A program made the position numbers and the translations under genes. Shown here piece after piece: positions 3,264-32,681 of a DNA stretch of 64,000 nucleotides. Where the stretch lies: assembly GCF_024732245.1 (NCBI RefSeq), contig NZ_CP093845.1, positions 1,612,001-1,676,000 of the forward strand, given 5' to 3'. The notes beneath the pieces are model-generated. The model did not search any database, was not told where the DNA came from, and worked only from the letters and a program-made list of their open reading frames with translations. Each line of letters begins with the position of its first letter. Position 1 is the first letter of the stretch. The DNA is from Dietzia sp. B32 (GTDB taxonomy: Bacteria; Actinomycetota; Actinomycetes; Mycobacteriales; Mycobacteriaceae).

Positions 3264-4163
3264 TCACTCCACCGGCTCGAGCGGCGGGAGCTCGCCGGTG
3301 TCATCCCCGCCGCTTCCGCCCTCACTGGCGCCCGAGCTCGCGGCCGCGCTGCCGGCGTCGGCCTCCTCCCCATCGGCGGGCTCGTCCTCCGAGCTGGCCG
3401 CGGCGAGCGAGCCGAGGAGGTTCGCACCCGTCGCGACACTGCCGCCGGAAATGGATCCGGCGGAGACGGGCTCCACAGAACCTCCGGGGATCCTGCCGTT
3501 GATCTGGTCCGCGACGACCTGCGGGTCGATACCGAAGTTGGTCTCCAACCCTCCGAGCGTGCCGTCCTCGTTCACGGGGACACAGAGGACGATGCCGACC
3601 GCCGGGGTCTCCGGCGACAACGCGGTCCAGCTGACATCCGCCCCGGCCTCGACCAGGACAGAGCGGCCCGGCTGACCGAATACGAACGGGAGAACGTTCT
3701 GAACGACGTTGTTCTCGACCACGGGATCGTCGAGCTCCACTGCCGGAGCCCCCTCGTCGTCGGCGAGGAGGTGGGTCAGCCCACCGCCGGCCTCGATGGC
3801 AGTGATGAGCGCGATGCCAGCCGCGAGGTCGCCCTCCGGGTAGTCGGTCTCGAGGTCGTTGTCTTCGATCGTCGAGTACGGGGCGGTGGCCCCCAGGCAG
3901 CGCTGGTCGGCATCCGACTCGTTGGTATAGGTGACAGTCGGGCCACCCTCCTCATTCGGCGCGACCGTGACGGGTCCACTGAGGGCCTCGCCAGCGGTCT
4001 CGAGATCACCGGCGATCTCTCCGAGATCGATCGAGCTACTGCCCAGCGAGCCCGTCGACTCCTCATCGTCCTGGGCGGAGGCGATGCCGGCGCCGGCGAG
4101 GCTGGCCCCGGCGGCCAGGGCCACGGCCGAGGCTCCGGCAAGTATCCGATTTCGAGCGAACAT
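3264..4163 (-). CDS. Secreted two-cysteine GSLGS-family protein (paralog A1)
   Basis: 299 residues. A Sec signal peptide (positives at 4-6, hydrophobic core 8-28, cleavage near ASA-QDD at 30) precedes an exported domain. 'STGSLGSSS' follows the cleavage site directly. A block '[10 protein letters not shown]' then runs to Cys89 and 'APYSTI', and a second cysteine sits at 194 ('IVLCVPVN'), suggesting one disulfide. The C-terminal third holds '[19 protein letters not shown]' and an acidic Ser/Gly/Glu tail. Strong AAGGAG ribosome site 6 nt before the ATG. It is closely related to the next gene (4593-5396) and more distantly to five others in this window. I recognise no described family. Expected location: cell envelope or medium. 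Confidence 0.85.
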
Positions 4164-4246
4164 GAGATCTCCTTGCAGTGAGGGAAAGTCACCACTTCGA
4201 GGACCGCGGTGACACGTGCCGACGTCTGGGAGACGCCTGAGCGGAG

Positions 4247-4262
4247 TGTTACATGGGTCACA
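4247..4262. promoter_or_regulatory. CRP/GlxR-like inverted repeat upstream of secreted paralog A1
   Basis: TGTTA-CATGGG-TCACA matches the TGTGA-N6-TCACA pattern of actinobacterial CRP/GlxR sites at 9 of 10 half-site positions. It lies about 85-100 nt upstream of the start codon at 4163. Assignment to a CRP-family regulator is inference. Confidence 0.4.
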
Positions 4263-4496
4263 TCCCCACATCGCGTGAGCTGTGGAAACTTTATGGTAGA
4301 TAACTTCTTATTAACCTTATTCATCCTCGACTGTCACTCAAAGCACTTGCGTCCCATTCGGACATGCGGCGGGCATCGCGATGTGAGCCGCAGGGGATTC
4401 GCCGCGTGACGGTCGCCCGCCGGCGAGACCCCCGCCGTTCCCTCGGTCGCCGACCTCCGTCTAAGTGCCCGACTCCTGTGCGGCAGGAAGACAGAA

Positions 4497-4542
4497 GACC
4501 CCGGAAGGTTCGCCACCCGACGGCGGCGAACCTTCCGGGGTC
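4497..4542 (-). terminator. Strong hairpin terminator after the secreted-protein gene at 4593
   Basis: A perfect 18-bp inverted repeat (4497-4514 with 4525-4542) with a 10-nt loop lies about 50 nt past the stop of the minus-strand gene. Confidence 0.8.
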
Positions 4543-4592
4543 GCCCGGTGTAGGTGTCGCGGTGATCAGGTCGATCACAGCCACACCACGAG

Positions 4593-5396
4593 TCACTCGA
4601 CGACGGGCGGCTCCCCCTCCCCGTCGGCGAGCGAGCCGAGGGCGCCCGCGCCGACCGCGACGCTGCCGCCGGAGATCGACCCCGCCGAGACGGGTTCGAC
4701 CGATCCGCCCGGGATCTTGCCGTTGATCTGGTCCGCGACCACCTGCTTGTCGATGCCGAAATTGATGGCCAGTACCGAAGTCGCGCTACTGGGACTGATG
4801 ATGCAAATCACTCCGGCGGCTGCTGGGGATTCGGGTACCGACGGGGTCCAGGAAACGGTCTCGCCCGGCGCCACGTCCACACTGTTCGCCGGATACTCAG
4901 TGTTCAGGTACTCGTACTGCAGCCCGACGACCTCCATCACGATGTTCTCGGCGAAGTCGGGATCGTCAGCCTGCACGATCGGAGCCCCGTTCTCGTCGCC
5001 CAGCAGGAGCGTGACATCGGGGCCCGCCTCGATCGCATTGAGAAGCGCGAGCCCGGCGGCCAGGTTTGAGGTGTCGAACCCCACGTCGAGGTCGTTGTCG
5101 ACGATTGTCGAGTAGGGCGCGGTGAAGCCCACGCACTCCTCCGCGGCATTCCCTTTGTTGGTGTAGGTGACCGTGGGACCGCCGGTCTCGTTGGGCGTGA
5201 CGGTGACCGGGCCGTTCAGAGCCTTGGCCGCGACGGCGAGATCTCCGATCGCGTCACCGAGTCCCAGGCCACTGCTGGAAAGAGATCCGGCCGATCCGGA
5301 CTCGTCGATCTGGGCGAACGCGGTTCCGCCTCCCGTCGTGACGGCGAGCAGGGCAGCAGCGGTGACCGCGGTGCCCGCGCGTGTACGCAGTTGCAT
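4593..5396 (-). CDS. Secreted two-cysteine GSLGS-family protein (paralog A2)
   Basis: 267 residues with a Sec signal peptide cleaved near AFA-QID (28). After it come 'SAGSLSSSGLGLGD', '[19 protein letters not shown]', Cys88 before 'APYSTI', and Cys198 ('GVICIIS'). The region from 'FGID' through '[19 protein letters not shown]' to 'SISGGSV' is almost identical to paralog A1, so the two arose by recent tandem duplication. The middle (about 100-200) has diverged much more. The ATG at 5396 follows an AGGA ribosome site. It has its own terminator and promoter region, so it is not simply co-transcribed with A1. Function unknown; secreted or envelope-associated. Confidence 0.85.
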   Translation of the reverse strand: MQLRTRAGTAVTAAALLAVTTGGGTAFAQIDESGSAGSLSSSGLGLGDAIGDLAVAAKALNGPVTVTPNETGGPTVTYTNKGNAAEECVGFTAPYSTIVDNDLDVGFDTSNLAAGLALLNAIEAGPDVTLLLGDENGAPIVQADDPDFAENIVMEVVGLQYEYLNTEYPANSVDVAPGETVSWTPSVPESPAAAGVICIISPSSATSVLAINFGIDKQVVADQINGKIPGGSVEPVSAGSISGGSVAVGAGALGSLADGEGEPPVVE

Positions 5397-5473
5397 AAGA
5401 ATCCTAACGCGAGGGGCGCGGTTGAATTCTTCCCGCACCGGACGAGGTGACGTCGGTTTGGCGCCAACAGGAG

Positions 5474-5487
5474 TGTTACACGTCACA
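5474..5487. promoter_or_regulatory. TGTTACA/TCACA motif upstream of secreted paralog A2
   Basis: TGTTA-CACG-TCACA, with a further GTTACA about 10 nt on, lies about 80 nt upstream of the start at 5396. The half-sites match those upstream of paralog A1, but the spacer is 4 rather than 6, so a CRP site is doubtful. Confidence 0.25.
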
Positions 5488-5681
5488 CCTAGTCGTTACA
5501 TCTGGAATACGCCATTCTCAGCATTCGCATCCGAATCACAAGCCGGGAGTCCCCGGACTCGTGCCGACGGCCGGGGCTACCGGGTTTCCGACGCGGGGCC
5601 GCTGTACAGAACCGACCTGACAGGTTGATCGGTCCATGGAGGCGATAACGTGTGTGCAACGCCACACGAAAGGGCATTTCT

Positions 5682-6779
5682 GTGACCACTGCCTCCTCCG
5701 GTCCCCTCGCGGGCATCCGCGTCGTCGAACTCAACGGCATCGGCCCCGGCCCGCACGCCTGCATGATGCTGGCCGATCTCGGCGCCGACGTCGTGACTGT
5801 CATGCGCCCCGGCGAGCTCGACACCCAGGTCGGCGGCTGGGCGCACATCACCCGTCGCAGCCGGACCGTGGTGGAGGCCAACCTCAAGAGCGATGAGGGC
5901 CTGTCGCAGGTGCGCGGGCTCATCGCCAAGGCCGACGTGCTGGTCGAGGGGTTCCGTCCCGGGGTCACCGAACGGATGGGTCTGGGTCCGGACGAGTGCC
6001 TCGAGATCAACCCGCGCCTGGTCTACGCCCGGATGACCGGGTGGGGCCAGCACGGCCCGCTGGCACACACCGCCGGCCATGACCTCAATTACATCTCGCT
6101 GACCGGCCACCTCAACGCCACCGCCCGCAAGGGCGAGCGCCCCGTGCCGCCGCTCAACCTCGTCGGTGACTTCGGCGGCGGGTCGATGTTCCTCATCCAG
6201 GGCATCCTCGCCGCGATCATCGAGCGCGCCACCTCGGGCAAGGGGCAGGTCATCGACGCCGCCATGACCGACGGAGCCTCGGTGCTGGGCCAGTTCCAGT
6301 GGGCGATGCGCGCCCGGGGCCAGTGGTCGGACGTCGCCGGGACCAACATGCTCGACACCGGGTACCCGTTCTACGACGTCTATACCTGCTCGGACGGCAG
6401 ATTCATGGCCGTCGGCTGCCTCGAGCCGCAGTTCTACGCCGAGTTCGCCCGACTGTTGGGTATCGACGGCGAGGGAATGCCCGGCCAGTTCGACATGGAC
6501 CGCTGGGATGAACTGCGCGAGATCATCTCCGGGAAGTTCGCCGAGAAGACGCGTGACGAGTGGGCAGAAGTGTTCTACGGAACCGACGCGTGCACGACGC
6601 CGGTACTGACCTACACCGAGGCGCTCGACCACCCGCACAACGTTGCCCGCCAGACCTTCGTCGAGGTGTCGGGCGATGCCGGGCCCGCCCCCGCGCCCCG
6701 CTTCTCCCGCACCCCGGCTGCTCCGGTCCCGGCCGCTCCGCCGCGCGAGGTCACCGCGATCGACAAGGTGTGGTCCTGA
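5682..6779 (+). CDS. mcr: Alpha-methylacyl-CoA racemase / CaiB-BaiF family CoA transferase
   Basis: 365 residues. Racemases of this family interconvert (2R)- and (2S)-methylacyl-CoA during branched-chain or sterol side-chain degradation. The catalytic His/Asp pair is visible in 'GHDLNYIS' and 'GDFGGGSM', and the conserved glutamate in 'CLEPQFYAEF', matching the H126/D156/E241 set known for the M. tuberculosis enzyme. The fold is the class III CoA-transferase type. I start at GTG 5682, which has a GAAAGGG site 7 nt upstream; an upstream start at 5652 is also open. The GntR gene follows after 3 nt, so the two form an operon. Confidence 0.9.
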   Translation: MTTASSGPLAGIRVVELNGIGPGPHACMMLADLGADVVTVMRPGELDTQVGGWAHITRRSRTVVEANLKSDEGLSQVRGLIAKADVLVEGFRPGVTERMGLGPDECLEINPRLVYARMTGWGQHGPLAHTAGHDLNYISLTGHLNATARKGERPVPPLNLVGDFGGGSMFLIQGILAAIIERATSGKGQVIDAAMTDGASVLGQFQWAMRARGQWSDVAGTNMLDTGYPFYDVYTCSDGRFMAVGCLEPQFYAEFARLLGIDGEGMPGQFDMDRWDELREIISGKFAEKTRDEWAEVFYGTDACTTPVLTYTEALDHPHNVARQTFVEVSGDAGPAPAPRFSRTPAAPVPAAPPREVTAIDKVWS

Positions 6780-6782
6780 ACG

Positions 6783-7193
6783 ATGGGTGAGCCGGTCTCC
6801 GGTCCCGGCGCCGGGGGCTCCCGCGTCGCGGGTGTGGTGCTCCGCGTAGACCCCGCTTCCGGTGACGCACCGTTTCGCCAGCTCAAGGACCAGATCGTCG
6901 AGGCGATCCGGCTCGGAGAACTGGCCACGGGGACTCGGATGCCCCCGGTCCGCCGACTCGCCCAGGAGGTGGGCGTCGCCACGGCCACCGCCGCCAAGGT
7001 GTACCGCGAATTGGAGGAGTCCGGCCAGCTGGAAGGTCGCGGCCGCTCGGGCACGTTCGTCGCCGCCCCAGATCTGCCGTCGGACGCGCTCGCCCGGGCC
7101 GCGGTGGAGTTCGCGGCCCAGGCGGCGGGTGCCGGATTCTCCGAGGCCGAGGCCGTGGACGCCGTCAGAGCCGCCTTCGCCCAGCGCGGGTGA
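6783..7193 (+). CDS. GntR-family regulator, YtrA-type (no large effector domain)
   Basis: 136 residues. A GntR winged helix occupies residues about 20-95: 'PFRQLKDQIVEAIRLGEL', 'GTRMPPVRRLAQEVGVA', 'TAAKVYRELEESGQLEGR' and 'GRSGTFV'. Only a short helical C-terminus of about 40 residues follows, as in YtrA-type regulators that usually control a neighbouring ABC transporter. Here the co-transcribed neighbour is the racemase, 3 nt upstream. Its target and ligand are unknown. It converges on the secreted-protein gene ending at 7204. Confidence 0.9.
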   Translation: MGEPVSGPGAGGSRVAGVVLRVDPASGDAPFRQLKDQIVEAIRLGELATGTRMPPVRRLAQEVGVATATAAKVYRELEESGQLEGRGRSGTFVAAPDLPSDALARAAVEFAAQAAGAGFSEAEAVDAVRAAFAQRG

Positions 7194-7203
7194 ACCGACC
7201 AGA

Positions 7204-7827
7204 TCATCGCTCCCGCGCATTCGATGAGCGAGCGATGAGATGGTCGCCGCCGCCACCGCTGCCGCCTCCGCCCGTGCTGGACGTCTCGAGCTCGGCGTAG
7301 GTAAGCCCCTCGTCGCCGTCCTCGGAGAACGCGCACACCGTGACGATCTCGGGCGAGAAGGCCTTGTCCGAGAGTTGTTGGAGCGGTGTGGGAACCAGCA
7401 CGACATCTCCGTCCTGGCCTTCCTCCGGGTTGACGAATGTCACCGGACCCGACGCTCCGTTCTCCAGCGCGAAGACACCCACCACCCCTCGGACGCCGAG
7501 CTCTTCGCCTATCGTCCCGACGTCAGTCGCGGGCGGGAAGATGTCGAGGTCCCCGGAGAACCCCGCCTCGACATGGACGTCGTAGAGCACCTCAACCGTT
7601 CGGGGAGTACCGATATACGCGTAGCAGAGAAGGTCGTGATTCGACCGGTTGTCATACGACACGACGAGATCACCGCCCTCGTCACGTTCGACGAAGACCG
7701 TGCTGGGGCTGTCGAGCCGCCAGGCAGTCGAGTTCTGAGCACCGGCCATCCCGACCCCGGCGAGGGCCGACGTCCCGGCCAGTGCTGTGGTCGCGGCGAT
7801 GACGCCGAGGCGTCTGAGGGATCGCAT
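7204..7827 (-). CDS. Secreted two-cysteine family protein (paralog B1)
   Basis: 207 residues with a Sec signal peptide ending near AGA-QNS (30). The family pattern follows: 'DLVVSYDNRSNHDLLC' (Cys68), then 'TVEVLYDVHV', then 'EIVTVCAFSEDG' (Cys165). The C-terminus is a glycine-rich linker ('GGGGSGGGG') and a basic end ('ARSSNARER'). The GSLGS motif of its relatives is missing. CGGAG lies upstream of the ATG. It sits downstream of paralog B2 but after that gene's terminator, so it has its own promoter. Function unknown; exported. Confidence 0.8.
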   Translation of the reverse strand: MRSLRRLGVIAATTALAGTSALAGVGMAGAQNSTAWRLDSPSTVFVERDEGGDLVVSYDNRSNHDLLCYAYIGTPRTVEVLYDVHVEAGFSGDLDIFPPATDVGTIGEELGVRGVVGVFALENGASGPVTFVNPEEGQDGDVVLVPTPLQQLSDKAFSPEIVTVCAFSEDGDEGLTYAELETSSTGGGGSGGGGDHLIARSSNARER

Positions 7828-7964
7828 TGGGAACTCCGATCTTTGAGCGTGTACGGCCCGGCGGCCGCGGCGTGGTCCATTAGACGCCCGGGTCAACGGC
7901 GTCGCTGTCGTACGTTCGTATGACCACAGGCGTCCAAGGCGACTGTCCACCGCCCCCGCCCCAC

Positions 7965-8010
7965 GCAGACCTCGCCCCCGGCCTTCGCAGAGGCCGGGGG
8001 CGAGGTCTGC
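7965..8010 (-). terminator. Strong hairpin terminator after secreted paralog B2
   Basis: A perfect 19-bp inverted repeat (7965-7983 with 7992-8010) and 8-nt loop begins 16 nt downstream of the stop at 8027. Confidence 0.85.
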
Positions 8011-8026
8011 AGAGACACGCCTGCTG

Positions 8027-8644
8027 TCAGCTCCCGAGTGAACCCGTCGTCTCGGCGACCGAACCTGAACTCCCGAGCCCCGCCAGGGCGGAGTCCAGCG
8101 ACCCGAGGCCGGTGGGGACGCCGGCCCCCGCGGAGCTCTCGATTTCGACGTATTCCCCGCCATCGGGATTCATACAGATGGCCATCGCGGCCGGTGTGAA
8201 CGAACCGTCGGTGAGTCCCACGGCCCCGTCCGGAAGCTCCAGCCCGGGGAGGTCGAAGGCCGACGGGAGAACAGCGCTCTGACCGTCGTCGACCGTGCCC
8301 ATGTACAGGCCGAGCTTTCCCGTCGTGAGCGCGGTCAGCATCCGCAGGTTCAGTTCGGCGGGGAGCTCGGCCCCGCCGGTGTCCCCGGTCTTCTTGGTGT
8401 AGCTGTAGAAGTCGGCAATCAACCGATCTGGGCCGGCGAACGCGGTACACAGGAGATCGCGCTCGGACTCGTTCCGATAGGTGACCTTGGTGCTCGCGCC
8501 CTTGCCTTCGACACTGACACTGCTGGGGCTGTTGAAGACGGGGGAAGCGACCTGGGCGTTGGCCAGCGCCGCTCCGGAGAGGGCGGTGGCTGACGCGATC
8601 GCGGTGGCCGCGGCGGTGACGGCCATTCGGGAGAGGGGACGCAT
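8027..8644 (-). CDS. Secreted two-cysteine GSLGS-family protein (paralog B2)
   Basis: 205 residues. The signal peptide ends near ANA-QVA (30). 'TKVTYRNESERDLLC' (Cys66) and 'AMAICMNPDGG' (Cys157) show the shared two-cysteine scaffold; B1 has the matching 'NHDLLCYA'. The C-terminal 30 residues are Gly/Ser/Leu-rich ('GLGSLDSALAGLGSSGS') and the protein ends exactly in Thr-Gly-Ser-Leu-Gly-Ser. The same terminal pentapeptide ends the gene at 29027. No membrane anchor, LPXTG or lipobox is visible. Exported; function unknown. Confidence 0.85.
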   Translation of the reverse strand: MRPLSRMAVTAAATAIASATALSGAALANAQVASPVFNSPSSVSVEGKGASTKVTYRNESERDLLCTAFAGPDRLIADFYSYTKKTGDTGGAELPAELNLRMLTALTTGKLGLYMGTVDDGQSAVLPSAFDLPGLELPDGAVGLTDGSFTPAAMAICMNPDGGEYVEIESSAGAGVPTGLGSLDSALAGLGSSGSVAETTGSLGS

Positions 8645-8739
8645 GTGCTGCTCCGATGCTCGGGGAACGGCGGCCTACCGACCGCCTGTCATCGACTCAA
8701 CCGCACAGCCGTGACCTGCGCTGTCCCCTGTTCGCATGG

Positions 8740-8760
8740 CATGTGTCATACGTACACATG
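8740..8760. promoter_or_regulatory. 21-bp palindrome upstream of secreted paralog B2
   Basis: CATGTGT-CATACGT-ACACATG is a perfect 7-bp inverted repeat with a 7-nt centre that is itself nearly symmetric. It is located about 96-116 nt upstream of the start at 8644 and just after the purA stop. It could be an operator; the regulator is unknown. Confidence 0.35.
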
Positions 8761-8801
8761 AAAGCTCGCCCCACCGGTCCCGCTGTCCCCGCTCGTCCCG
8801 T

Positions 8802-10088
<1,287 letters not shown>

Positions 10089-10195
10089 GGTTCGCTTTCA
10101 CCTCGAAATGAGTCGTCTACACGGTGAGGGACGGGCACATTCTCGTGATTCCGCGCACACCAGCGCTCCAGAATAGTCGCATTCGCGCTCTCACC

Positions 10196-11095
10196 CTAGT
10201 CGCCGACCCCCCGCAGCCTGCGCAGTCGCACGGGCGTTCCGGGCAGGAGCTGCGAGATCCTGTCCGCCGAGCGGGCGGTGAGCACCCCGATCACCGGGTA
10301 GCCGCCGGTGACGGGGTGGTCGGGCCCGAACACCACGGGCGAACCGTCGGCGGGGATCTGCACCGCTCCGCGCACCATGCCCTCGCTGGGGATCTCACCG
10401 CGTCGCAGTCGGGGCACGGGGCGGGCGGGGTCGATGCGGACGCCCACCCTGTCCGCGTGCCCGCTGACGTGTCCGGTCGCGGCGAGTACGTCCCACGCGC
10501 CGGCCGGGAACAGGTCGTCGCGAGGACCGGGGATGACCTCCAGGTCGACGGGGTGCCTGCCGTCCCCACCCGGGCCCTGCGCGACGGCGGCGTGCCACCC
10601 GTCGGCCCAGGGCCCCACGACGGCGTCGCCGACGCCCAGCACGTCACCGGTCACGACGGGTGGCGGGCCCAGCCCCGCGAGGGTGTCGCGCGACCGACTG
10701 CCCAGCACCGCCGGTACGTCGATTCCCCCGCGGACGCCCACGTAACTGCGCACCCCGGTGACGGGCCGGCCGATCTCCAGGCTCGCCCCGGCCTCCAGCC
10801 GGAGGACCTCACCGGTGGCGGCGGTGCGTCGGGAACCGCCCGGGGTCACGACGACGACGAGGGCCTCCGCCCCCGTGACCGCCACGATCGCGGGCGCGTC
10901 CGTCATGAGCGTGAGCCCGCCGAGCAGCACCTCGAGCACTGCGGCCGCCGGGTCGGTGCCGACGGCCCGCAGGGCGGTGGCCGCGGCGGCGCGGTCGGCG
11001 GCCCCGGAGGCCGTCACCCCGAGAGAGGCGTGGCCGGGACGACCGAGGTCCTGCACGAGCGCGGACGGCCCGGCCCGCAGCACCAGCAGACTCAT
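10196..11095 (-). CDS. pxpC: 5-oxoprolinase subunit C (biotin-dependent carboxyltransferase/KipA-type)
   Basis: 299 residues of the KipA/PxpC fold: 'GPSALVQDLGRPGHASLGV', 'SGAADRAAAATA', 'SYVGVRGGIDVPAVLGSRSRDTLAGLG' and 'GGYPVIGVL' are diagnostic. With PxpA and PxpB it converts 5-oxoproline (pyroglutamate) to glutamate using ATP. It is third in a minus-strand operon pxpA-pxpB-pxpC, starting 16 nt after the pxpB stop. I use ATG 11095 rather than the upstream in-frame start because the family begins close to this residue. Confidence 0.92.
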   Translation of the reverse strand: MSLLVLRAGPSALVQDLGRPGHASLGVTASGAADRAAAATALRAVGTDPAAAVLEVLLGGLTLMTDAPAIVAVTGAEALVVVVTPGGSRRTAATGEVLRLEAGASLEIGRPVTGVRSYVGVRGGIDVPAVLGSRSRDTLAGLGPPPVVTGDVLGVGDAVVGPWADGWHAAVAQGPGGDGRHPVDLEVIPGPRDDLFPAGAWDVLAATGHVSGHADRVGVRIDPARPVPRLRRGEIPSEGMVRGAVQIPADGSPVVFGPDHPVTGGYPVIGVLTARSADRISQLLPGTPVRLRRLRGVGD

Positions 11096-11111
11096 CGGGG
11101 TCGTTCCGGGC

Positions 11112-11906
11112 TCATCGGGGCCCGCCTTCCTCACGGAAGCGGACCGTCATCCCCGGGGCGAGCAGGGCGGGGTACGGACGGTCGAGGTCCCAGAGCGGGG
11201 CGTCGGTGGTGCCGAGGAGCTGCCACCCGCCCGGGGAGGCACCCGGGTAGACGGCGCAGAAGCGGTCCGCCAATCCCACCGATCCGGCCGGGACCCGCGC
11301 GCGCGGCGAGCCCAGCCGCGGCACCGCAGGCAGGGCGGGTGTCGGCGCCGGGGCCTCGGCCGGCCCGCCCACATCCGGCCGGCCCGCATCCCGCGCGCCC
11401 GCATCCAGCTCCCGCGCGTCGACGAGGTAGAAGAACCCCGGTGCGAACCCACCGAACGCGGCCCGCCACGTGATCGACGTGTGGGTGCGGACCAGCGCCT
11501 CGGTCGACATCCCGGCGAGGTCGGCGACGGCGGCCAGGTCGGGCCCGTCGTAGCGGACGCCGATCGTCACCTCCCGCCCCCCACCTCCCACCGAATCCGC
11601 TACTCCCCTTCCGGATCCGCTATTCGGATCAGAGGCGCCGATCCGGTTTTCGGATAGCGGATTTCGGGAGGGTGGCGCAGCGGCGGGCGGATCCTGGGCG
11701 AGCAGAGCCTCGAGCCGCCGACGCAGCCCCCGCAGGGCGGAGGCGTCCCGCGCGGTCACCAGCACCGTGCGGGCCGCCGCGACCACATCGAGCGCCTCGG
11801 GCCGCAACTGCTCGATCCTCCCGGCCAGCGCGACGGCCTCGGCCAGATCGGCACAGTCGAGCAACAGCGCCGTCTCCCCGCAGCGGCGGATCCTCGTCGT
11901 CGTCAT
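11112..11906 (-). CDS. pxpB: 5-oxoprolinase subunit B (KipI-type), with an in-frame palindromic insertion
   Basis: 264 residues. The PxpB/KipI domain is recognised by 'VTIGVRYDGPDLAAVA', 'THTSITWRAAFGGFAPGFFYL' and 'PGGWQLLGTTDAPLWD'. Its usual length is about 210-230. The extra length comes from a linker around residues 79-110, whose DNA is an AT-richer inverted repeat (11591-11667), and from an Ala/Pro/Gly-rich stretch after 'VDARELDAG'. It overlaps pxpA by 4 nt (ATGA) and precedes pxpC. It likely acts with PxpC on the 5-oxoproline intermediate. Confidence 0.9.
   Translation of the reverse strand: MTTTRIRRCGETALLLDCADLAEAVALAGRIEQLRPEALDVVAAARTVLVTARDASALRGLRRRLEALLAQDPPAAAPPSRNPLSENRIGASDPNSGSGRGVADSVGGGGREVTIGVRYDGPDLAAVADLAGMSTEALVRTHTSITWRAAFGGFAPGFFYLVDARELDAGARDAGRPDVGGPAEAPAPTPALPAVPRLGSPRARVPAGSVGLADRFCAVYPGASPGGWQLLGTTDAPLWDLDRPYPALLAPGMTVRFREEGGPR
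11591..11667. repeat. Imperfect palindromic element inside pxpB
   Basis: The outer arms ccgaatccgcta (11591-11602) and tagcggatttcgg (11655-11667) are inverted copies. Inside them a second copy ggatccgctattcgg lies beside atccggttttcggat, so the motif TCCGCTA/TAGCGGA and its relatives recur four times in 77 bp. The stretch is clearly less GC-rich than its surroundings and stays in frame within pxpB. Confidence 0.6.
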
Positions 11907-12799
11907 CCCGTGCCCGGCTCCCCCACCACGCCGCGCCCCAGCGCGCCGCCCGGCCGGGTGAACGGCGCCACCTCCACCCCGGCCGACTCGAGCGACGCGC
12001 GCACGCGGCGGGCGAGGTCGACGGCACCGGGGGTGTCACCGTGCACGCACACCGAGGCAGCGGTGACCACCACCCGCGCGCCCTCGTGGGTGGTGATCGC
12101 CCGGCCGGTCGCCATCGCCACCACGCGGTCGGCGACCTCGTCGCCATCGGTGATCACCGCACCCGGCTCACCGCGTGGGACCAGGGTGCCGTCGGGCCGG
12201 TACCCGCGGTCGGCGAACGCCTCCGTCACCGCGGGGACGCCGGCCGCCTCGGCATGGGCGAGCACCACCGCACCGGGCAGGCCGAGGATCGGCAGCGGCT
12301 CCTCGTCGGCGAGGTCGGCGTACCGGAGGACGGCATCCACGACGCCCGCGGCCTGCTCGGCATCCCGCACAATACGGTTGTAGAGGGCGCCGTGGGGCTT
12401 GACGTACCGCACCCGGGTGCCGCGCCGTCGAGCCGCCATGTCCAGCTCCACCAACTGGAACTCCACCAGCCGGGCGACCTCCTCCCGGTCCAGCTCGTGC
12501 TCGATCCGGCCGAAGTTCGCGCCGTCCCGGTATGACGGGTGCGCACCCAGCGCGACCCCCCGCTGCGCGGCCGCGGCGGCGGTGGCGTTCATGGTGGGCC
12601 GGTTGCCGGCATGGAAGCCGCACGCGACGTTGGCGGAGGTCACCACATCGAGAAGCGCGGCGTCATCGGGATCCGGTCCGGCGGAGGGGGCGAGCGACGC
12701 GGTCCAGCGCGGCGTCCCCCGGCGGGCCTCGCCGAGGTCGCAGTTGAGATCGATCCTGCGCGCCTGTCCAACCACCCTTCCATCCTGCCCCAGGTTCAC
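11903..12799 (-). CDS. pxpA: 5-oxoprolinase subunit A (LamB/YcsF family)
   Basis: 298 residues. 'IDLNCDLGEA' at residues about 16-25, 'VTSANVACGFHAGNRPTM', 'GVALGAHPSYRD', 'YVKPHGALYN' and 'ADRGYRPDGTLVPRGEPGA' are the standard YcsF/PxpA blocks. PxpA with PxpBC forms the ATP-dependent prokaryotic 5-oxoprolinase. The next block, 'VCVHGDTPGAVDLA', is also conserved. First gene of the pxpABC operon; its stop overlaps the pxpB start. The neighbouring plus-strand gene at 12820 is only 20 nt away, so the promoters overlap. Confidence 0.93.
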   Translation of the reverse strand: MNLGQDGRVVGQARRIDLNCDLGEARRGTPRWTASLAPSAGPDPDDAALLDVVTSANVACGFHAGNRPTMNATAAAAAQRGVALGAHPSYRDGANFGRIEHELDREEVARLVEFQLVELDMAARRRGTRVRYVKPHGALYNRIVRDAEQAAGVVDAVLRYADLADEEPLPILGLPGAVVLAHAEAAGVPAVTEAFADRGYRPDGTLVPRGEPGAVITDGDEVADRVVAMATGRAITTHEGARVVVTAASVCVHGDTPGAVDLARRVRASLESAGVEVAPFTRPGGALGRGVVGEPGTG

Positions 12800-21113: not shown

Positions 21114-21192
21114 GTGGGGCGGGGTCGGACCGCGGTGAGGACTGATCGGTCAGACGGGCGGGATCAGGCCGTACCGATCAGGCCGCGTTCGA

Positions 21193-23362: not shown

Positions 23363-23437
23363 GACCCCACCGTAGCGCCGCGGGTGGCGGGGTCCCGCGC
23401 GCTGCAGGATCACGGGCGGGCGGATTGTGATGCCCCG

Positions 23438-24133: not shown

Positions 24134-24152
24134 GTCGTCGCCGGCCCGCCGC

Positions 24153-24562: not shown

Positions 24563-25041
24563 CAGACCACCGCGTCCATCTCGGAGCGCAGGGAGGTGGC
24601 CTGCCGCAGCAGGGCGCGCATGACCACCATGAGAAGCGCGGCGACCGTGATGACGACGACGACGAGGAAGAGCAGGAGCGGGAGACCGGGGTCATCAGCG
24701 TTGATGCCGACCAGCACCAGCACGACCACGAGCATCACCCAGGCCGCGACGATCGCCCCCAGGATCACATCGACCCAGACCAGGGACGCGTCCGTGAAGA
24801 TGCGGTCGGCCTTGACCATCGAGAGCAACTTCCAGGTGGCCACGACCACGACCTGGATGCACACCACCCAGTAGATCGATACGGCCGTCAGCGGCCAGCG
24901 CAGATGCGCCGCCTCCGGCGTCGTCTCCGCCATGTGCGCGAACTGACCCGGCAGCGACATCACCTCGAACAGGACCAGGATCGCGAACAGCACCACCAGG
25001 AACACCCGCAGCGGAAGTACCGCTCGTCTTTCGATCTCCAT
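24562..25041 (-). CDS. DUF2975 membrane protein
   Basis: 159 residues with four membrane segments: 'LRVFLVVLFAILVLFEVM', 'PLTAVSIYWVVCIQVVVVATW', 'VILGAIVAAWVMLVVVLVLVG' and 'LLLFLVVVVITVAALLMVVM'. Between segments two and three is 'RIFTDASLVWVDVI', typical of DUF2975. ATG 25041 ('MEIERRAVL') is chosen; an upstream in-frame start at 25059 would run into the putative operator. Paired with an HTH regulator as is common for this family. Function unknown. Confidence 0.88.
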   Translation of the reverse strand: MEIERRAVLPLRVFLVVLFAILVLFEVMSLPGQFAHMAETTPEAAHLRWPLTAVSIYWVVCIQVVVVATWKLLSMVKADRIFTDASLVWVDVILGAIVAAWVMLVVVLVLVGINADDPGLPLLLFLVVVVITVAALLMVVMRALLRQATSLRSEMDAVV

Positions 25042-25062
25042 GCAACGACTATGGGCCACTAT

Positions 25063-25079
25063 CTATCGAAAATCAATAG
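25063..25079. promoter_or_regulatory. AT-rich near-palindrome, candidate operator of the DUF2975-HTH operon
   Basis: CTATCGAAAATCAATAG (plus strand) has arms CTAT-CGA and TCA-ATAG around AAA. It lies 22-38 nt upstream of the DUF2975 start in an otherwise GC-rich stretch, where a promoter would be expected. Binding by the operon's own HTH protein is inference. Confidence 0.35.
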
Positions 25080-25113
25080 GCGTCGCCCGGGCGAGGCGCT
25101 CAGGGCGAGGCGC

Positions 25114-25803
25114 TCAGGCCGGAGCGGCGTGTTCGCGGATCCAGGCGTGCATCGCGATCCCGGCGGCCACCCCCGCGTTGATCGACCGGGTCGAGCCGAA
25201 CTGGGCGATGGAGACGGTCTTCGCGGCACGCAGGCGGGCGTCGTCGCTCACCCCGGGGCCCTCCTGACCGAAGAGCAGGACGCAGGCGCGCGGCAGGCGA
25301 GCGGTCTCCAGCGGCTCGGCGCCGGGAAGGTTGTCGACGGCGACGACCGGCAGCCCCTCGGACTCGGCCCAGTCCATGAGCGCGGCCACGTCCTCGTGGT
25401 GACGCAGATGCTGGTAGCGGTCGGTGACCATGGCTCCGCGCCGGTTCCAGCGTCGCCGCCCCACGATGTGCACCTCGGCCGCCAGGAAGGCGTTGGCGGT
25501 GCGCACCACGGTGCCGATGTTGGCGTCGTGCCCGAAGTTCTCGATCGCCACGTGGAACGGGTGCCGCCGGGTGTCGAGGTCGGCGACGATCGCTTCGCGG
25601 CGCCAGTACCGGTAGCGGTCGACCACGTTGCGGCGATCCCCCTGGTCGAGGAGGTCGGGATCCCACCGGTCGCCGACCGGACGCGGCTCGTCCGGGTGCT
25701 CGAGCTCCCACGGGCCGACGCCGACCGCGCCCTCGCCCCATTCGGTGGGGCCCGCCGCGGGCTCCGTGGAGTCCGCCGGGCCCTGCGGATCCACTTCCGT
25801 CAC
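25114..25803 (-). CDS. SpoU/TrmH-family RNA 2'-O-methyltransferase (Rv0380c-like)
   Basis: 229 residues. The C-terminal 160 form the SPOUT fold: 'NFGHDANIGTVVRTANAF', 'LLFGQEGPGVSDDA' and 'IAQFGSTRSINAGVAAGIAMHAW' are motifs 1-3, which bind SAM and form the trefoil knot. The N-terminal 65 residues are acidic and not conserved. It methylates ribose in tRNA or rRNA; the position modified cannot be deduced. GTG 25803 overlaps the SDR stop by 4 nt. Last gene of the pyrE operon, as Rv0380c lies beside pyrE in M. tuberculosis. Confidence 0.9.
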   Translation of the reverse strand: MTEVDPQGPADSTEPAAGPTEWGEGAVGVGPWELEHPDEPRPVGDRWDPDLLDQGDRRNVVDRYRYWRREAIVADLDTRRHPFHVAIENFGHDANIGTVVRTANAFLAAEVHIVGRRRWNRRGAMVTDRYQHLRHHEDVAALMDWAESEGLPVVAVDNLPGAEPLETARLPRACVLLFGQEGPGVSDDARLRAAKTVSIAQFGSTRSINAGVAAGIAMHAWIREHAAPA

Positions 25804-26612
25804 GAGGTCAGGCGCCGGTTGGACAGCTTGACCAGGCGACCCGGGGCGACCTGCGAGGCGAGATACATGGCGGTGGCCTGCGCCCCGACCGGTCGATGGA
25901 CCTCGCGGCCCAGCGCGCTGCGGATCCGGCCCACCATCCCGGTGGGCCTCCGTCGCGTCTGCTCGGCCAGGTCGAGGACCTCGCCGGCGACGTCGCCCTC
26001 GGTGAGGCGCACGCCCATGGTGCGCATCCCGGCGGTGTCGACGCCCTCGAGCATCCCCGTGCCCACGTACAGTGGCCACACCGAGCACACCCTGATGCCG
26101 TGGGGCGCCCACTCCAGGTCCAGGGCCTCGGTGATACCGCGGACCGCGAACTTGGTGGCCGAGTACGTCGCCATCTCGGCCTGGCCGTAGATCGCCGACG
26201 CCGAACAGAGGTTCACCACGGTGGGGGTGGAGGCCTTCCGCAGGAACGGGAACGCGGCCCGACAGCCGTAGAGGACGCCCTTGACGTTGACGTCCACCAG
26301 CGCGGAGTCCTTCTCGAAGCTCGCGTCCATGAACGGCGTGCCGTAGAGCAGGCCGGCATTGTTGACCAGCACGTCCAACGCGCCGCCGCTGCGGGAGGTG
26401 AGCTCGGCCAGAGCTGCTTCCCACGCGCCCGGGTCTGTGACATCGAGGGCACCGGTGACGATGCGGTCGTCGCTCTCGGCCCATGCGCAGGGCTCGAGGT
26501 CGTACGCGCCGACCAGGTAGCCGGCGTCGGCGAACCGGCGGGCGGTCGCCTCGCCGATCCCGCGCCCGGCACCGGTGACGAGGACGGTGCGGGGGGTTCC
26601 GGAGGCGGTCAC
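25800..26612 (-). CDS. Short-chain dehydrogenase/reductase
   Basis: 270 residues. Classical SDR: the NAD(P) loop 'VLVTGAGRGIGEATARRF' (about 10-27), 'LDVLVNNAGLLYG', the catalytic Ser in 'NLCSASAIYG', and Tyr-x3-Lys in 'ATYSATKFAVRG'. 'WPLYVGTGML' replaces the usual P-G motif. Many actinobacterial homologs act on hydroxy-fatty or sterol-like alcohols; the substrate here is unknown. GTG 26612 and its stop both overlap neighbours by 4 nt, showing tight coupling with the lysoplasmalogenase-like and SpoU genes. Confidence 0.92.
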   Translation of the reverse strand: MTASGTPRTVLVTGAGRGIGEATARRFADAGYLVGAYDLEPCAWAESDDRIVTGALDVTDPGAWEAALAELTSRSGGALDVLVNNAGLLYGTPFMDASFEKDSALVDVNVKGVLYGCRAAFPFLRKASTPTVVNLCSASAIYGQAEMATYSATKFAVRGITEALDLEWAPHGIRVCSVWPLYVGTGMLEGVDTAGMRTMGVRLTEGDVAGEVLDLAEQTRRRPTGMVGRIRSALGREVHRPVGAQATAMYLASQVAPGRLVKLSNRRLTS

Positions 26613-27379
26613 GGCCTGCTCCCGGCGTTCCGGGCGGCCGCGGCGGTGCCGGTGAGCAGCAGGAGCGCCGCCGTGGCGTAGGTGTCGATCACTCCGACGT
26701 CCAGCGACCGGGCGAGGGCGGTCCCGCCCTCGGCCCGGCGGCGGGCCAGGATGAGCGAATCGCTGAGCAGGAACACGGGCCCGGCGACCGCCAACACCGA
26801 GGCCGCCGGGCCGTGCGAACGGTCGACGGAGGTGGCGAGCGCGGACAGCGTGGCGAGCAGCCCGCCGTATGCCGCGAGCGGGGCATTGCGGCGGTTCTCC
26901 GTGAGGAGCACCGCACCGGCGACACCGGCGACCACGCCGTGCACGGCGGATTGCACCGGCTTGAACCGCAGCCCCGAACGCAGCATCAGTCCACCGAGTG
27001 CGAGGTGCCCCACCCCGAACGCCGCGGCCCCCGCAACGAGACGGGACGTCGACCGGCTCGCGTGGCCGCCGCCGAGCATGAGGATCGCGTCGCCCGCCGT
27101 GTACCCCGCCCCGGTGACCGACAGCAGGGCGGTGTCGACCGCGGAGAGCCGGCCGTCGCGTAGGGCGATCGTCAGCGCCGCCGGCACGATCACCGGCTTG
27201 CACAGCTTCTCCAGCGCGCCGACCCCGGTGGCCTTGGCGATCTCCGTCCCCGCGGTGGCCGCGAGGAACGCGGGCCCCTCCGGGCGGGAGGTGTCGGCGA
27301 GCGAGCCCACCCGCTCCGTCAGCGCCTGCACCAGGCGATCGCGGAATGCCCTCGTCGTCGTCGTATCCATGCTGGTCAC
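26609..27379 (-). CDS. YhhN/TMEM86 (lysoplasmalogenase-like) membrane protein
   Basis: 256 residues with about eight short hydrophobic segments after a soluble 60-residue start. 'CKPVIVPAALTIALRDG', 'GAGYTAGDAILMLGG', 'FGVGHLALGGLML' and 'GPVFLLSDSLILARRR' are the YhhN-family signatures, including the conserved Asp residues in GDAIL and SDSL. Vertebrate TMEM86 and some bacterial YhhN proteins cleave the vinyl-ether bond of lysoplasmalogens; activity here is inferred. GTG 27379 overlaps the pyrE stop (GTGA); the internal ATG at 27370 is an alternative. Confidence 0.87.
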   Translation of the reverse strand: MTSMDTTTTRAFRDRLVQALTERVGSLADTSRPEGPAFLAATAGTEIAKATGVGALEKLCKPVIVPAALTIALRDGRLSAVDTALLSVTGAGYTAGDAILMLGGGHASRSTSRLVAGAAAFGVGHLALGGLMLRSGLRFKPVQSAVHGVVAGVAGAVLLTENRRNAPLAAYGGLLATLSALATSVDRSHGPAASVLAVAGPVFLLSDSLILARRRAEGGTALARSLDVGVIDTYATAALLLLTGTAAAARNAGSRP

Positions 27380-27933
27380 TCCAGTCCCAGGTCGGTCAGG
27401 CCCAGCAGCGCGCGGTACTCCACGCCCTCGGCGCGGATCACCTCGTCGGCGCCGGTCGCGCGGTCCACCACGGTGGCCACGCCCACGACCTCGGCGCCCG
27501 CCTCGCGCAGGGCGGTGACGGCGGTGAGGGGCGAGTTCCCGGTGGTGGTGGTGTCCTCGACGACGAGGACCCGCCTGCCCACGATGTCAGGGCCCTCGAT
27601 GCGACGCTGCATGCCGTGTTTCTTGGCCTCCTTGCGCACCACGAACGCGTTGATCGGCCGGCCGGGCGCGTGCATGATCGCGGTGGCCACCGGATCCGCG
27701 CCGAGCGTCAACCCACCGACTGCGTCGAAATCCCAGTCCTCGGTGAGCTCGCGCAGCAGCCGCCCGATCAACGGCGAGGCCTCGTGGTGCAGCGTGGCGC
27801 GGCGGAGGTCGACGTAGTAGTCGGCCTCCCGCCCCGACGAGAGGGTGACTCGACCGTGGACGATGGCCAATTCGGCGACCAGCTCGGCGAGCCTGCGGCG
27901 CGGATCGGGATCGATATCGGTGGCGGCGGGCAT
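27376..27933 (-). CDS. pyrE: Orotate phosphoribosyltransferase
   Basis: 185 residues. It makes OMP from orotate and PRPP in pyrimidine synthesis. 'LSSGREADYYVDLRRATL', 'VGGLTLGADPVATAI', 'VVRKEAKKHGMQRRIEG' and the PRPP loop 'RRVLVVEDTTTTGNSPLTA' are all in place, at normal length. It heads a four-gene operon with the lysoplasmalogenase-like, SDR and SpoU genes, all joined by 4-nt overlaps. Equivalent to Rv0382c. Confidence 0.96.
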   Translation of the reverse strand: MPAATDIDPDPRRRLAELVAELAIVHGRVTLSSGREADYYVDLRRATLHHEASPLIGRLLRELTEDWDFDAVGGLTLGADPVATAIMHAPGRPINAFVVRKEAKKHGMQRRIEGPDIVGRRVLVVEDTTTTGNSPLTAVTALREAGAEVVGVATVVDRATGADEVIRAEGVEYRALLGLTDLGLE

Positions 27934-28020
27934 ACAGCTCCCTCGGTGGTGGCAATGTCACGACGGTGGGACGGGAATCGATCCCGTCGACCACGACTCT
28001 AGACCGGCCCCCGGACAGCA

Positions 28021-28059
28021 GTGGACGGGTCGACCGCTCGGTGCGGTCGACCCGTCCAC
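28021..28059 (-). terminator. Strong hairpin terminator after the three-gene secreted cluster
   Basis: A perfect 17-bp inverted repeat (28021-28037 with 28043-28059) with a 5-nt loop ends 34 nt past the stop of the gene at 28093. It separates that cluster from pyrE. Confidence 0.85.
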
Positions 28060-28092
28060 TCCCGGAGCGCGGGCGGGATTCAGCTGTGGGCG

Positions 28093-28998
28093 TCAGCCCT
28101 CGCCGCCGGTGCCCCCACCCGTGTCGTCGCCACCGGTGTCGTCACCGCCCGTGTCGTCACCGCCGGTGTCGTCACCGCCACCGACCGGAGGCGTGGGACC
28201 GGAACCGCTGCTGCCGAGCGATCCCAGGGAACCGCTGTCGAGGGTGCCGCTCTCCTCGGGCTCGACGACCGGCGGGGGCCAGCCCTCCTCGTACGCCGAC
28301 CACGCGTAGAGCTGCGCGGTGCCCTGCGCGGCCGCCGAGTTGGCGCCCTGCGCACACACCGTGAAGAAGCCGACCTTGTCCGTCCCACGGGGGCTGGTGG
28401 CCGGCGGGCCGAGGGTGATGGTCCGGGTGGTGTTGGCACCGTTGTTCAGCGCGAACGCGGTGGTGGTACCGAACAGGCCCTTGACCTTGGCGTCGGTGTT
28501 ACCGGCGGTGATCTGGCTCCGCAGCGTCACCGCCTGGCTGGCCATGTTGCCGAGACTGCCCTGCGGGAGGAGCTGGAAGAGCGGCCACAGCGGCACCCGC
28601 ATGGTGCCGGAGGAACCGGCCACCTGCATCGTGATCGCCACCTCCTCGGCCTTGGAGTTCTGGAACTTCGAGTAGTACTCGATCGACTGCTCCACGACCG
28701 TGGCCGTCGAGATGGACCCTCCGGGGCGGTTGGCCGCGTCCTGGCTCGGCGCCTCGCAGTAGACCTGGAAGCCCGTGTTGTTGGTCATGGTGACCTGGGC
28801 GGTTCCCGCCGCTCGATCGACGGAGACGACGTCGACGGCCATCCCGGGATGGTTGACGACGATGGTCCGTCCGTCGCCGTTGTCCCCGGGGACCACGGTG
28901 ACGACGTCCTGCGCGGATGCGGCGCCGGCGCCGGCGGCCGCGATCGCCGCGCCGACCGAGACCACCGCGAGGCCCTTCGTGAATTTCGAGGTAGACAT
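28093..28998 (-). CDS. Secreted two-cysteine GSLGS-family protein with a GGDDT-repeat tail (paralog C3)
   Basis: 301 residues. The signal peptide ends near ASA-QDV (29-30). Family pattern: 'VTMTNNTGFQVYC' (Cys81), 'EQSIEYYSKFQ', then 'VGFFTVCAQGAN' (Cys215). The tail has 'SGSLGSLGSSGSG' (residues 255-267) and then four copies of Gly-Gly-Asp-Asp-Thr, giving a disordered acidic end. Its middle resembles the next two genes ('S-V/I-E/D-Y/F-Y' segment), so the three are paralogs. It is the last gene of a minus-strand cluster (29 nt after the gene at 29027) closed by the 28021 terminator. Exported; function unknown. Confidence 0.85.
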   Translation of the reverse strand: MSTSKFTKGLAVVSVGAAIAAAGAGAASAQDVVTVVPGDNGDGRTIVVNHPGMAVDVVSVDRAAGTAQVTMTNNTGFQVYCEAPSQDAANRPGGSISTATVVEQSIEYYSKFQNSKAEEVAITMQVAGSSGTMRVPLWPLFQLLPQGSLGNMASQAVTLRSQITAGNTDAKVKGLFGTTTAFALNNGANTTRTITLGPPATSPRGTDKVGFFTVCAQGANSAAAQGTAQLYAWSAYEEGWPPPVVEPEESGTLDSGSLGSLGSSGSGPTPPVGGGDDTGGDDTGGDDTGGDDTGGGTGGEG

Positions 28999-29026
28999 GG
29001 TGCTCCTTGACTAGTGGGCGGCGGGC

Positions 29027-29764
29027 TCAGGATCCGAGAGAACCGGAGCTGAGGCTGCCGGTGTTCTCGGGCTCGGGAGCGGGGTTCGGGTCCTCGATGT
29101 CCTCGAGACCGGTGTAGAGGAACCAATCGCCGGTGACGTTGTTCTTGCACATGAACAGTGCCGCGGCCTTCCACTGGCCGCGATCACCCGTCGCCGGGAC
29201 CCCGAGGGTGGCGGTGTAGTTCACGGTGGCGCCCGCGGCGACGTCGAACTGGAGGTTGCCGCCGACCCGGGGGTCCCCGGTCCGACCGGCCACCCGCGCC
29301 TCGTTGTGCGCCTGGCGGGTATCGGCCTCGGACGAACCGACGGAGCTCCCCGCAGGGAAGACGTCGTACAACGAGCCCATGGACACCAGATCACCGTTGG
29401 CGTTGGTGTCGGACGGCCCGGTGAAGACCTGGGTGCGGTAGTACTCCCGCACTTCACGCGCCGCGGCGGCCGTGGTGACCTGGCCGTAACCGACCGGCGT
29501 GGTCTTGTCGCCCTTGGCGAAGGCCGGCACCTCGCACCGGAACGCCTGACCGGTGGTGTTGGCGATCGTTCCCGTGACCACCGTCGGGGTGTCCCCCTTG
29601 GGATCGACCGAGACGATGAGAGAGGTGTCGTCCACCTTGACGACGTAGCCCGCGAATCCGCCTCCGGGCACCTGTGCCATGGCCGGCGCGGCACCGGCGG
29701 TCAGTGCGAGAGCCGCGGCGGCGACCGTCGCCCTACGCGTCGCACTACGGATAGATAGTGTCAT
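29027..29764 (-). CDS. Secreted two-cysteine GSLGS-family protein (paralog C2)
   Basis: 245 residues. The signal peptide ends near AMA-QVP (30). 'IANTTGQAFRC' (Cys77) and 'AALFMCKNNVTGDWFLYTG' (Cys206) give the shared disulfide pair; 'AREVREYYRTQVF' matches the Y-Y helix of C1 and C3. The chain ends 'NTGSLSSGSLGS', so the last five residues equal those of paralog B2. It lies between C1 (86 nt upstream) and C3 (28 nt downstream), most likely one transcript. No known domain recognised. Confidence 0.85.
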   Translation of the reverse strand: MTLSIRSATRRATVAAAALALTAGAAPAMAQVPGGGFAGYVVKVDDTSLIVSVDPKGDTPTVVTGTIANTTGQAFRCEVPAFAKGDKTTPVGYGQVTTAAAAREVREYYRTQVFTGPSDTNANGDLVSMGSLYDVFPAGSSVGSSEADTRQAHNEARVAGRTGDPRVGGNLQFDVAAGATVNYTATLGVPATGDRGQWKAAALFMCKNNVTGDWFLYTGLEDIEDPNPAPEPENTGSLSSGSLGS

Positions 29765-29850
29765 TCTGATTCTCCTGTCAGTCCGACACCCGGGCGGGGT
29801 CGGTGTGCTCTGCCGTGTCTGTCCGCGGATCCCATCCGCATGCCGGGTGC

Positions 29851-30570
29851 CTAACTGCCGAGACCCACACTGGCGAGGGATCCCTGGGCGGTGTTGCCGC
29901 CGTACTGGGGCTTGATCTCGCCCTCATAGGCGTGGAACGCGTACCGCTGACCACCGAGCTGGCACGTCAGGAACACGCCCGTCTGGAAGTCGGCGCGGGT
30001 GCCCTCACTGGGGTGGTCCAGCCGCACGGTCCGGACGACGGCCTGGCTCGCGGGCAGCGACAACGCGGAGGGGATCACCCCGTACTGCCCGGCCAGCCGG
30101 GCATCGGTCAGAGCGGCACCGCTGGCGTCCAGGGCCGCCCACTCCGGGTTCATGAACTCGCCCGCGCTGCCGATCTGGTCCGTGACCGACCCGAGGGGGA
30201 TCGTCTGGTTGCCGATCTGTGGGATCTGAAGGGTGAGATCGGCGAGGGTCGTGTTCGGGAACTGCGTGTAGAAGTCCACGGATCGCGCCACGACCTCGGC
30301 CGTCGTCACCGTGGCGGCGGGTCCGCCACCGACTCCGGTGCAGCTCACCGAGGCGGCGGTGTTGTTCTGGATCGTCACCTGCACCGTGCCGTCAGCCTCG
30401 TTGAGACCGTCGACCTCGATCAGGATTCGCGGGTCGTCCACCGGGAACACCTCGGTTTGCGGATTGTTCCCCGGGATCTGCGCCTGCGCAGCCGGCGCGA
30501 TGGCAGCGCCGATGGCCGCCGCCACTCCGAGTGCCGCCACACGAGCGACGGGATGCCACGTTCGTGCCAT
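29851..30570 (-). CDS. Secreted two-cysteine GSLGS-family protein (paralog C1)
   Basis: 239 residues. The signal peptide ends near AQA-QIP (30). 'VTIQNNTAASVSC' (Cys77), 'VARSVDFYTQFPNT' and 'GVFLTCQLGGQRYAFHAYEG' (Cys203) follow the family plan. The chain ends 'GSLASVGLGS', a variant of the terminal motif. ATG 30570 has AAAGGAG 8 nt upstream; earlier in-frame codons cross the promoter and are unlikely. First gene of the C1-C2-C3 cluster, divergent from the Ig-like secreted gene at 31032. Confidence 0.85.
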   Translation of the reverse strand: MARTWHPVARVAALGVAAAIGAAIAPAAQAQIPGNNPQTEVFPVDDPRILIEVDGLNEADGTVQVTIQNNTAASVSCTGVGGGPAATVTTAEVVARSVDFYTQFPNTTLADLTLQIPQIGNQTIPLGSVTDQIGSAGEFMNPEWAALDASGAALTDARLAGQYGVIPSALSLPASQAVVRTVRLDHPSEGTRADFQTGVFLTCQLGGQRYAFHAYEGEIKPQYGGNTAQGSLASVGLGS

Positions 30571-32668: not shown

Positions 32669-32681
32669 TGCCGTTCAGAGA

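Follow-up and report, generated by a model that had tools for sequence, protein, structure and literature searches.

How proteins are sorted to the mycomembrane and retained there is poorly understood. A stretch of the Dietzia sp. B32 chromosome encoding seven secreted two-cysteine proteins, several with a GSLGS motif, raises the questions of whether these proteins form one family and what might hold them at the cell surface. The stretch, referred to here as the window, is 64 kb long (positions 1,612,001-1,676,000) and belongs to a complete single-contig genome of 3.73 Mb. In the original prediction, made from the letters of the window, the seven genes were a single dispersed family of individually regulated envelope proteins. 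They are treated here as two groups: group A (genes 3264, 4593, 7204, and 8027, each called by its lowest coordinate) and group B (genes 28093, 29027, and 29851). Group A is best described as a Dietzia-specific set and group B as a predicted ancient three-subunit operon with a fourth, divergent gene, c1. Missing from the original prediction were the conserved triplet of B genes, the partner c1 at 31032-32597, and a second cassette at 3.48 Mb. For an environmental genus, the cassette would represent a new three-part surface system that is also plasmid-borne.

Two Groups of Secreted Two-Cysteine Proteins

All seven open reading frames (ORFs) are present on the minus strand, with signal-peptide starts at 4163, 5396, 7827, 8644, 28998, 29764, and 30570. 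The layout first described for them holds in each case: an A-x-A-Q Sec cleavage site follows residue 28-30, and there are exactly two cysteines, spaced 91-134 residues apart. An asparagine also lies exactly eight residues N-terminal of the first cysteine in all seven. Exact GSLGS, ascribed to five of the proteins, occurs in four (3264, 8027, 28093, and 29027); the claims about protein ends stood, as GSLGS is the exact C-terminus of 8027 and 29027, and 29851 ends in VGLGS. Sortase or lipoprotein anchoring is ruled out by absence of the motifs, in agreement with the original prediction: no C-terminal LPXTG-type sortase signal was seen when the seven translations were read by eye, and the first cysteine lies at residue 66-89 in all seven, not directly after the signal peptide as in a lipoprotein.

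Neither Pfam nor NCBIfam returned a match above the curated cut-offs for the seven proteins, consistent with the view that they belong to no described family. Pfam was equally silent above cut-off for 48 B and 21 A domains (best match DUF4232, expectation value (E) 0.01, in one of the 21 A domains), and sequence searches of the PDB assigned neither A nor B to a family. The literature searched held no work on A, B, or c1, and GSLGS appeared as a word only in papers unrelated by title.

A and B were profiled separately, since a flat seven-protein alignment mixed both groups. Within the B32 genome the A profile matches four places, none of them group B, and the B profile matches six, none of them group A; the extra three are a second triplet at 3.48 Mb. 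Few positions are invariant in either domain. The common pattern is N-x7-C plus a late cysteine, and this asparagine and both cysteines are invariant in 48/48 B domains and 21/21 A domains. A first simple A-B profile comparison gave a probability of 14% (E 0.0019), and whole A against B is weak (7%, E 0.0048). In hhalign, a nine-row A-II profile, a subset picked after the alignment had been inspected, matched the 48-row B profile with a probability of 74% (E 2.8e-5, 109 columns), the asparagine and both cysteines being in register; none of 60 column-shuffles reached this score. Weaker pairings were those of A-I with B1 (score reached by 4/60 shuffles) and whole A with B2 (2/60). The profiles of A-I and A-II match at 97.6%, and the N-terminal region of c1, used as a negative control, fell within the null (18/60 shuffles). 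From these alignments, A and B are likely remote homologues, two branches of one remote superfamily. What survives of the proposed single family is this distant kinship; a flat family of seven does not.

Within group A, the tail of the protein encoded at 7204-7827 reads GGGGSGGGG followed by a charged end, unlike its paralogues. A Dietzia gene elsewhere (L076:14927-16408) encodes three group A domains in tandem within one protein.

A Co-Inherited Cassette of Three B Genes and c1

Comparison of 17 B loci revealed a single near-constant neighbor, the divergently transcribed gene for the secreted protein c1 (about 400-645 residues), at 14/17 loci. A profile search added c1 at a further locus (L073), so that c1 accompanies each of the 15 complete triplets; the loci without c1 are one in a second genus with only two B genes (L072) and one at a contig end (L077). 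The order B1-B2-B3, with c1 divergent, is fixed in 15/15 complete triplets, with intergenic gaps of about 14-87 nt (starts approximated). The second cassette of the B32 genome, at 3.48 Mb, likewise consists of B genes and c1.

In a maximum-likelihood tree of the 48 B domains, all 15 first genes fall into a single clade (support 100/99). A single fork (98/92) unites the 15 second genes and both L072 rows, and a further branch (90/94) sets apart the 15 third genes plus that of L077. Position labels require five changes on this tree, against a minimum of three and 24.6 in shuffles. Because the B genes group by position and not by genome, the triplication preceded the spread of the cassette, and each position kept its identity; B1, B2, and B3 are, judging from the tree, three old paralogues in a fixed-order run. 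Correlations between the distance matrices of c1, B1, B2, and B3 range from r 0.84 to 0.94 (Mantel p 0.001), as expected of inheritance as a unit, which alone is no proof of contact. The cassette is almost certainly a real co-inherited unit. The triplet, its short gaps, and its co-inheritance rule out seven independent, separately terminated genes, and the separate strong terminators and individual regulation originally proposed were not found: a hairpin follows gene 4593 only, a scan of 27900-32800 detected no terminator between the B genes, and group B reads as a three-gene operon with short gaps beside the divergent c1.

The gene directly downstream of the second triplet (L058:6727-7293) encodes a secreted protein containing both GSLGS and GSVGS and has orthologues behind the triplet in L063 and L069.

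Distribution and Mobility

A profile search of related proteomes, suggested along with the original prediction, was made with separate A and B profiles and split the supposed single family: among 151 genomes of the family Mycobacteriaceae, group A occurs in 10, all Dietzia, and group B in 12, from 2/31 genera. Group A is present in 20/23 Dietzia genomes, with one to five matches per genome. Group B is present in 15/23 Dietzia genomes and in 12/15 of the good assemblies; 11 of the 15 genomes with matches hold three, six, or nine of them, and the other four, assemblies of 140-560 contigs, have one match each (in G102 at a contig edge). Copies of the B cassette range from zero to three per Dietzia genome. 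When named genomes were scanned with the B1 profile, four loci were found, all Dietzia, and an order-wide sample of 298 genomes, in which 10 candidates per genome were scored, gave group B in the B32 genome only.

The flanks of the cassette vary. Five genomes share the site found in the window (neighbor clusters c5, c7, c3, and c2), four share a second site, and the remaining cassettes are solitary, including one on a plasmid. The B1 profile matched 1/72,556 plasmid records and 0/50,697 phage records. The 26,589-bp mobilizable MOBF plasmid of D. psychralcaliphila (L103, NZ_CP015454.1) carries the cassette together with an IS21 pair, a recombinase, a TIR-domain protein, and a RES-domain protein. 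Near its end, the third B gene on this plasmid departs from the frame of the family. Plasmid cassette and one chromosomal copy of D. psychralcaliphila agree at 91-97% in the four proteins, and for B1-B3 and c1 alike, the nearest relatives of the second-genus cassette are the D. psychralcaliphila copies.

The Partner c1 and the Predicted B1 Fold

Like the B proteins, c1 carries an A-x-A-Q-type Sec signal. Its profile matches 36/151 family genomes from 9/31 genera, where the relatives in other genera are secreted proteins with tandem Big_3_5 (PF16640) immunoglobulin (Ig) repeats. By profile, c1 thus joins the wider set of Mycobacteriaceae proteins annotated "Ig-like domain-containing protein", whose members likewise have two cysteines. 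The relatives match Big_3_5 strongly and stand in tandem without B genes, whereas cassette c1 proteins mostly have no such match (1/14, E 1.3e-5). In four loci of other genera (L121, L124, L127, and L130), tandem c1-type Ig-repeat genes adjoin a gene whose secreted product ends in a similar way; in L124 this product is a cutinase by Pfam.

A model of the 193-residue B1 domain, built from the 48-row alignment, has a mean predicted local distance difference test score (pLDDT) of 83.5 and a predicted template modeling score (pTM) of 0.76. The modeled domain is beta-rich with helices at 61-73 and 112-129; Cys47 lies at the end of strand 45-47 and Cys173 inside strand 167-175. A central low-confidence stretch holds a beta hairpin at residues 82-94.

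GS Tails and Mycoloyltransferases

The most constant tail is that of B1, which ends in GS in 15/15 proteins and in [LF]GS in 12/15; a GS end is found in 5/15 B2 and 1/15 B3 proteins. Of 19 c1-family proteins with printed ends, 12 carry [LF]GS among their five final residues. Secretion was assigned by a simple signal-peptide rule. In fetched loci of the Dietzia type, GS[LIVMF]GS occurs in 0/253 non-secreted proteins and 5/39 other secreted proteins, three of these five being orthologues, and the reversed motif was not found in the same loci. In a larger set, C-terminal [LIVMF]GS occurs in 37/164 secreted and 3/386 non-secreted proteins, and two of those three are c1 relatives with wrong starts. 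On these counts, the GS tail is tied to secretion.

The pattern GS-[L/F]-GS-stop has six DNA matches in the whole B32 genome, of which three are true in-frame C-termini: two in the window, and one in a secreted mycoloyltransferase-type esterase whose nearest PDB proteins are PS1 and Cmt1. A second esterase, nearest to Cmt1, ends in GSAGSSGS. PF00756 has 12 matches in this genome, and 7 of the 11 such proteins read contain GS-x-GS stretches. Two adjoining genes (L090 and L091, about 2,077,816-2,079,935) encode secreted, GSxGS-rich mycoloyltransferase-type esterases, one ending exactly in GSLGS. The Cmt1/PS1/Ag85 mycoloyltransferases of the genome resemble the window proteins in having GSLGS-type Ser/Gly stretches at a terminus or after the signal peptide, and differ in being alpha/beta-hydrolase-type enzymes unrelated to A, B, and c1.

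The tails of these mycoloyltransferases and the published modification sites provide the link from the GS tail to mycoloylation. ProtX is mycoloylated on its penultimate serine and PorH and PorB end in NFSS (PMC5310785), and surface assembly requires mycoloylation of only one of the two partners PorA and PorH (PMC12632848). The sites are serines in flexible Gly/Ser/Ala stretches, and the published site maps give no strict consensus or mycoloylation signal (PMC11066868). Three features of O-mycoloylated proteins are found here: Sec export, a serine in a flexible Gly/Ser stretch near a terminus, and a Cmt1-type enzyme in the genome. A short tail that is constant in one cassette subunit reappears in mycoloyltransferases of this genome, so that the existence of a sequence-defined anchor becomes decidable at the B1 tail serine.

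A Proposed Tethered Surface Assembly and Its Alternatives

The favored reading is that the B triplet and c1 form a single inherited surface-protein cassette, its four proteins exported by Sec. Each B protein would be a beta-rich domain with one invariant cysteine in an early strand and one in a late strand, able to pair as a disulfide. B1, B2, and B3 would not be interchangeable and would most likely make up one hetero-oligomer, from which the Ig-repeat protein c1 may extend, or beside which it may be displayed. Flexible Gly/Ser tails, chiefly the constant -GS of B1, would hold the assembly at the mycomembrane, with a tail serine plausibly O-mycoloylated by a Cmt1-type mycoloyltransferase. A single tethered subunit might retain the others, as with PorA/PorH. 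The Dietzia-specific group A proteins would be relatives in the same superfamily, some sharing the tail. The disulfide, the complex, the lipidation, and a surface role in adhesion or as a surface coat are what we infer from these patterns. Location of the cassette proteins at the mycomembrane is probable, and formation of a complex by B1-B3 is favored by somewhat more than an even chance. Mycoloylation of the tail serines is possible, with the balance tilted against it, and the whole chain, a secreted B1-B2-B3 hetero-oligomer displayed with c1 and tethered to the mycomembrane by lipidated tails, falls slightly short of an even chance. A broader proposal, that the C-terminal (GSL)(F/L)GS tail is a general mycomembrane address of the Mycobacteriaceae, a lipobox-like O-mycoloylation box that here tethers a mobile three-subunit B1-B2-B3/c1 appendage, is doubtful.

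PorA/PorH, ProtX, and PorB/PorC of Corynebacterium glutamicum are similar to what is proposed here, being secreted mycomembrane proteins with co-transcribed, unlike partners and a modified serine near a terminus in a flexible Ser/Gly context. PorA/PorH-type proteins are small, alpha-helical, and unrelated in sequence, whereas the B proteins are predicted beta-rich, disulfide-type domains of about 200 residues with Sec signals. PorA/PorH is a working model, and A, B, and c1 are not thereby members of that family. The surface-layer protein PS2 of C. glutamicum resembles the proposed assembly in being a surface protein for which an invariant C-terminal residue is proposed to aid anchoring (PMC12021427). 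It differs in that this residue is a terminal Phe and in being one large protein.

Several observations weigh against the tethered assembly. The co-divergence of the four proteins may reflect linkage alone, and no A or B protein stands beside the c1 relatives of other genera in 20 regions examined, so that the B triplet appears as an addition in Dietzia and one neighboring genus. The GS end is lacking in 10/15 B2 and 14/15 B3 proteins and in three of the four group A proteins of the window, in which c1 itself ends in SSAS. Secreted proteins commonly contain Gly/Ser linkers; the raw GS-[L/F]-GS-stop count of six is lower than the 12 of the reversed pattern, whose matches were not inspected; and all four secreted [LIVMF]GS families are A (two), B, and c1, so that the test adds nothing outside these. 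The modification sites mapped in ProtX and PorH lie at the penultimate residue and not at the last.

It is unlikely that A and B are independent secreted or envelope proteins arising from tandem duplication, with no complex and with GS tails as plain linkers. Such a history would suit the multiplication of group A without fixed order (one to five matches in 20/23 Dietzia genomes), the many B2 and B3 proteins without a GS end, and a gene in genome G055 with three consecutive A domains; against it, B never expands singly in good assemblies (three, six, or nine matches), B1-B3 keep their order and identity, and c1 remains adjacent. The cassette is still less readily explained as a cell-contact trait borne on a plasmid or island, serving aggregation, surface exclusion, or the masking of phage receptors, instead of a housekeeping coat. 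That five cassettes in five genomes occupy one chromosomal site with the same neighbors looks stable, and the cassette contains no phage or mating gene and B1 matches no phage record. These facts make such a trait highly improbable, even with a MOBF plasmid that holds the cassette plus few other recognizable cargo genes, with copy numbers of zero to three per Dietzia genome, and with a second-genus cassette nearest to the D. psychralcaliphila copies.

A hetero-oligomeric mycomembrane channel (porin) built of B1-B2-B3 is very unlikely. Dietzia has a mycomembrane (PMC8027190) and corynebacterial porins are small, paired, secreted, mycolate-modified proteins (PMC5310785, PMC12632848), as this explanation would lead one to expect. 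The beta hairpin at 82-94 of the B1 model could be a stem, but the central stretch is short and differs between subunits, and no MspA or other porin family was matched. An MspA-type porin is ruled out, as the MspA profile was absent among Pfam matches up to E 1. Corynebacterial porins are not known to have a divergent Ig-repeat partner, which also counts against a channel.

Regulation and Other Features of the Window

Three palindromes of the TGTGACATGTCGCACA type are observed in the window, with 0.48 expected. The sequence TGTGACATGTCGCACA, in the divergent region, resembles the GlxR/Crp consensus. In 5/14 cassettes, those of one chromosomal site, the corresponding TGTGN8CACA is found 89-101 nt from B1; the other nine lack it there. 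A sigma-70 promoter scan returned one site in 27900-32800 and none in 3000-9000. Feature coordinates are given in Table 1.

Table 1. Coordinates of the group A genes, the B cassette, and associated elements in the window.
Feature	Position	Strand	Remarks
Group A, A-I type, secreted two-cysteine protein, 299 residues	3264..4163	-	GSLGS at residue 38, not C-terminal
Terminator-like 20-bp hairpin downstream of gene 4593	4497..4542	-	Terminator scan
Group A, A-I type, 267 residues	4593..5396	-	Without exact GSLGS
Group A, A-II type, 207 residues	7204..7827	-	Without GSLGS
Group A, A-II type, 205 residues	8027..8644	-	C-terminus exactly GSLGS
B3, triplet gene 3, 301 residues	28093..28998	-	GSLGSLGSS, then long Gly/Asp-rich tail
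B2, triplet gene 2, 245 residues	29027..29764	-	C-terminus exactly GSLGS
B1, triplet gene 1, 239 residues	29851..30570	-	C-terminus VGLGS
Crp/GlxR-like palindrome TGTGACATGTCGCACA, divergent promoter region	30670..30685	+	Palindrome scan
c1, divergent fourth cassette gene, about 521 residues, secreted	31032..32597	+	Two-cysteine N-terminal region, Ig-like C-terminal part, Ser/Gly-rich tail

Between the two groups, three minus-strand ORFs at 10196-12799 resemble a 5-oxoprolinase set. A further predicted secreted protein, with GSLGS close to its end, is encoded at 63116-64000 and reaches the window edge.

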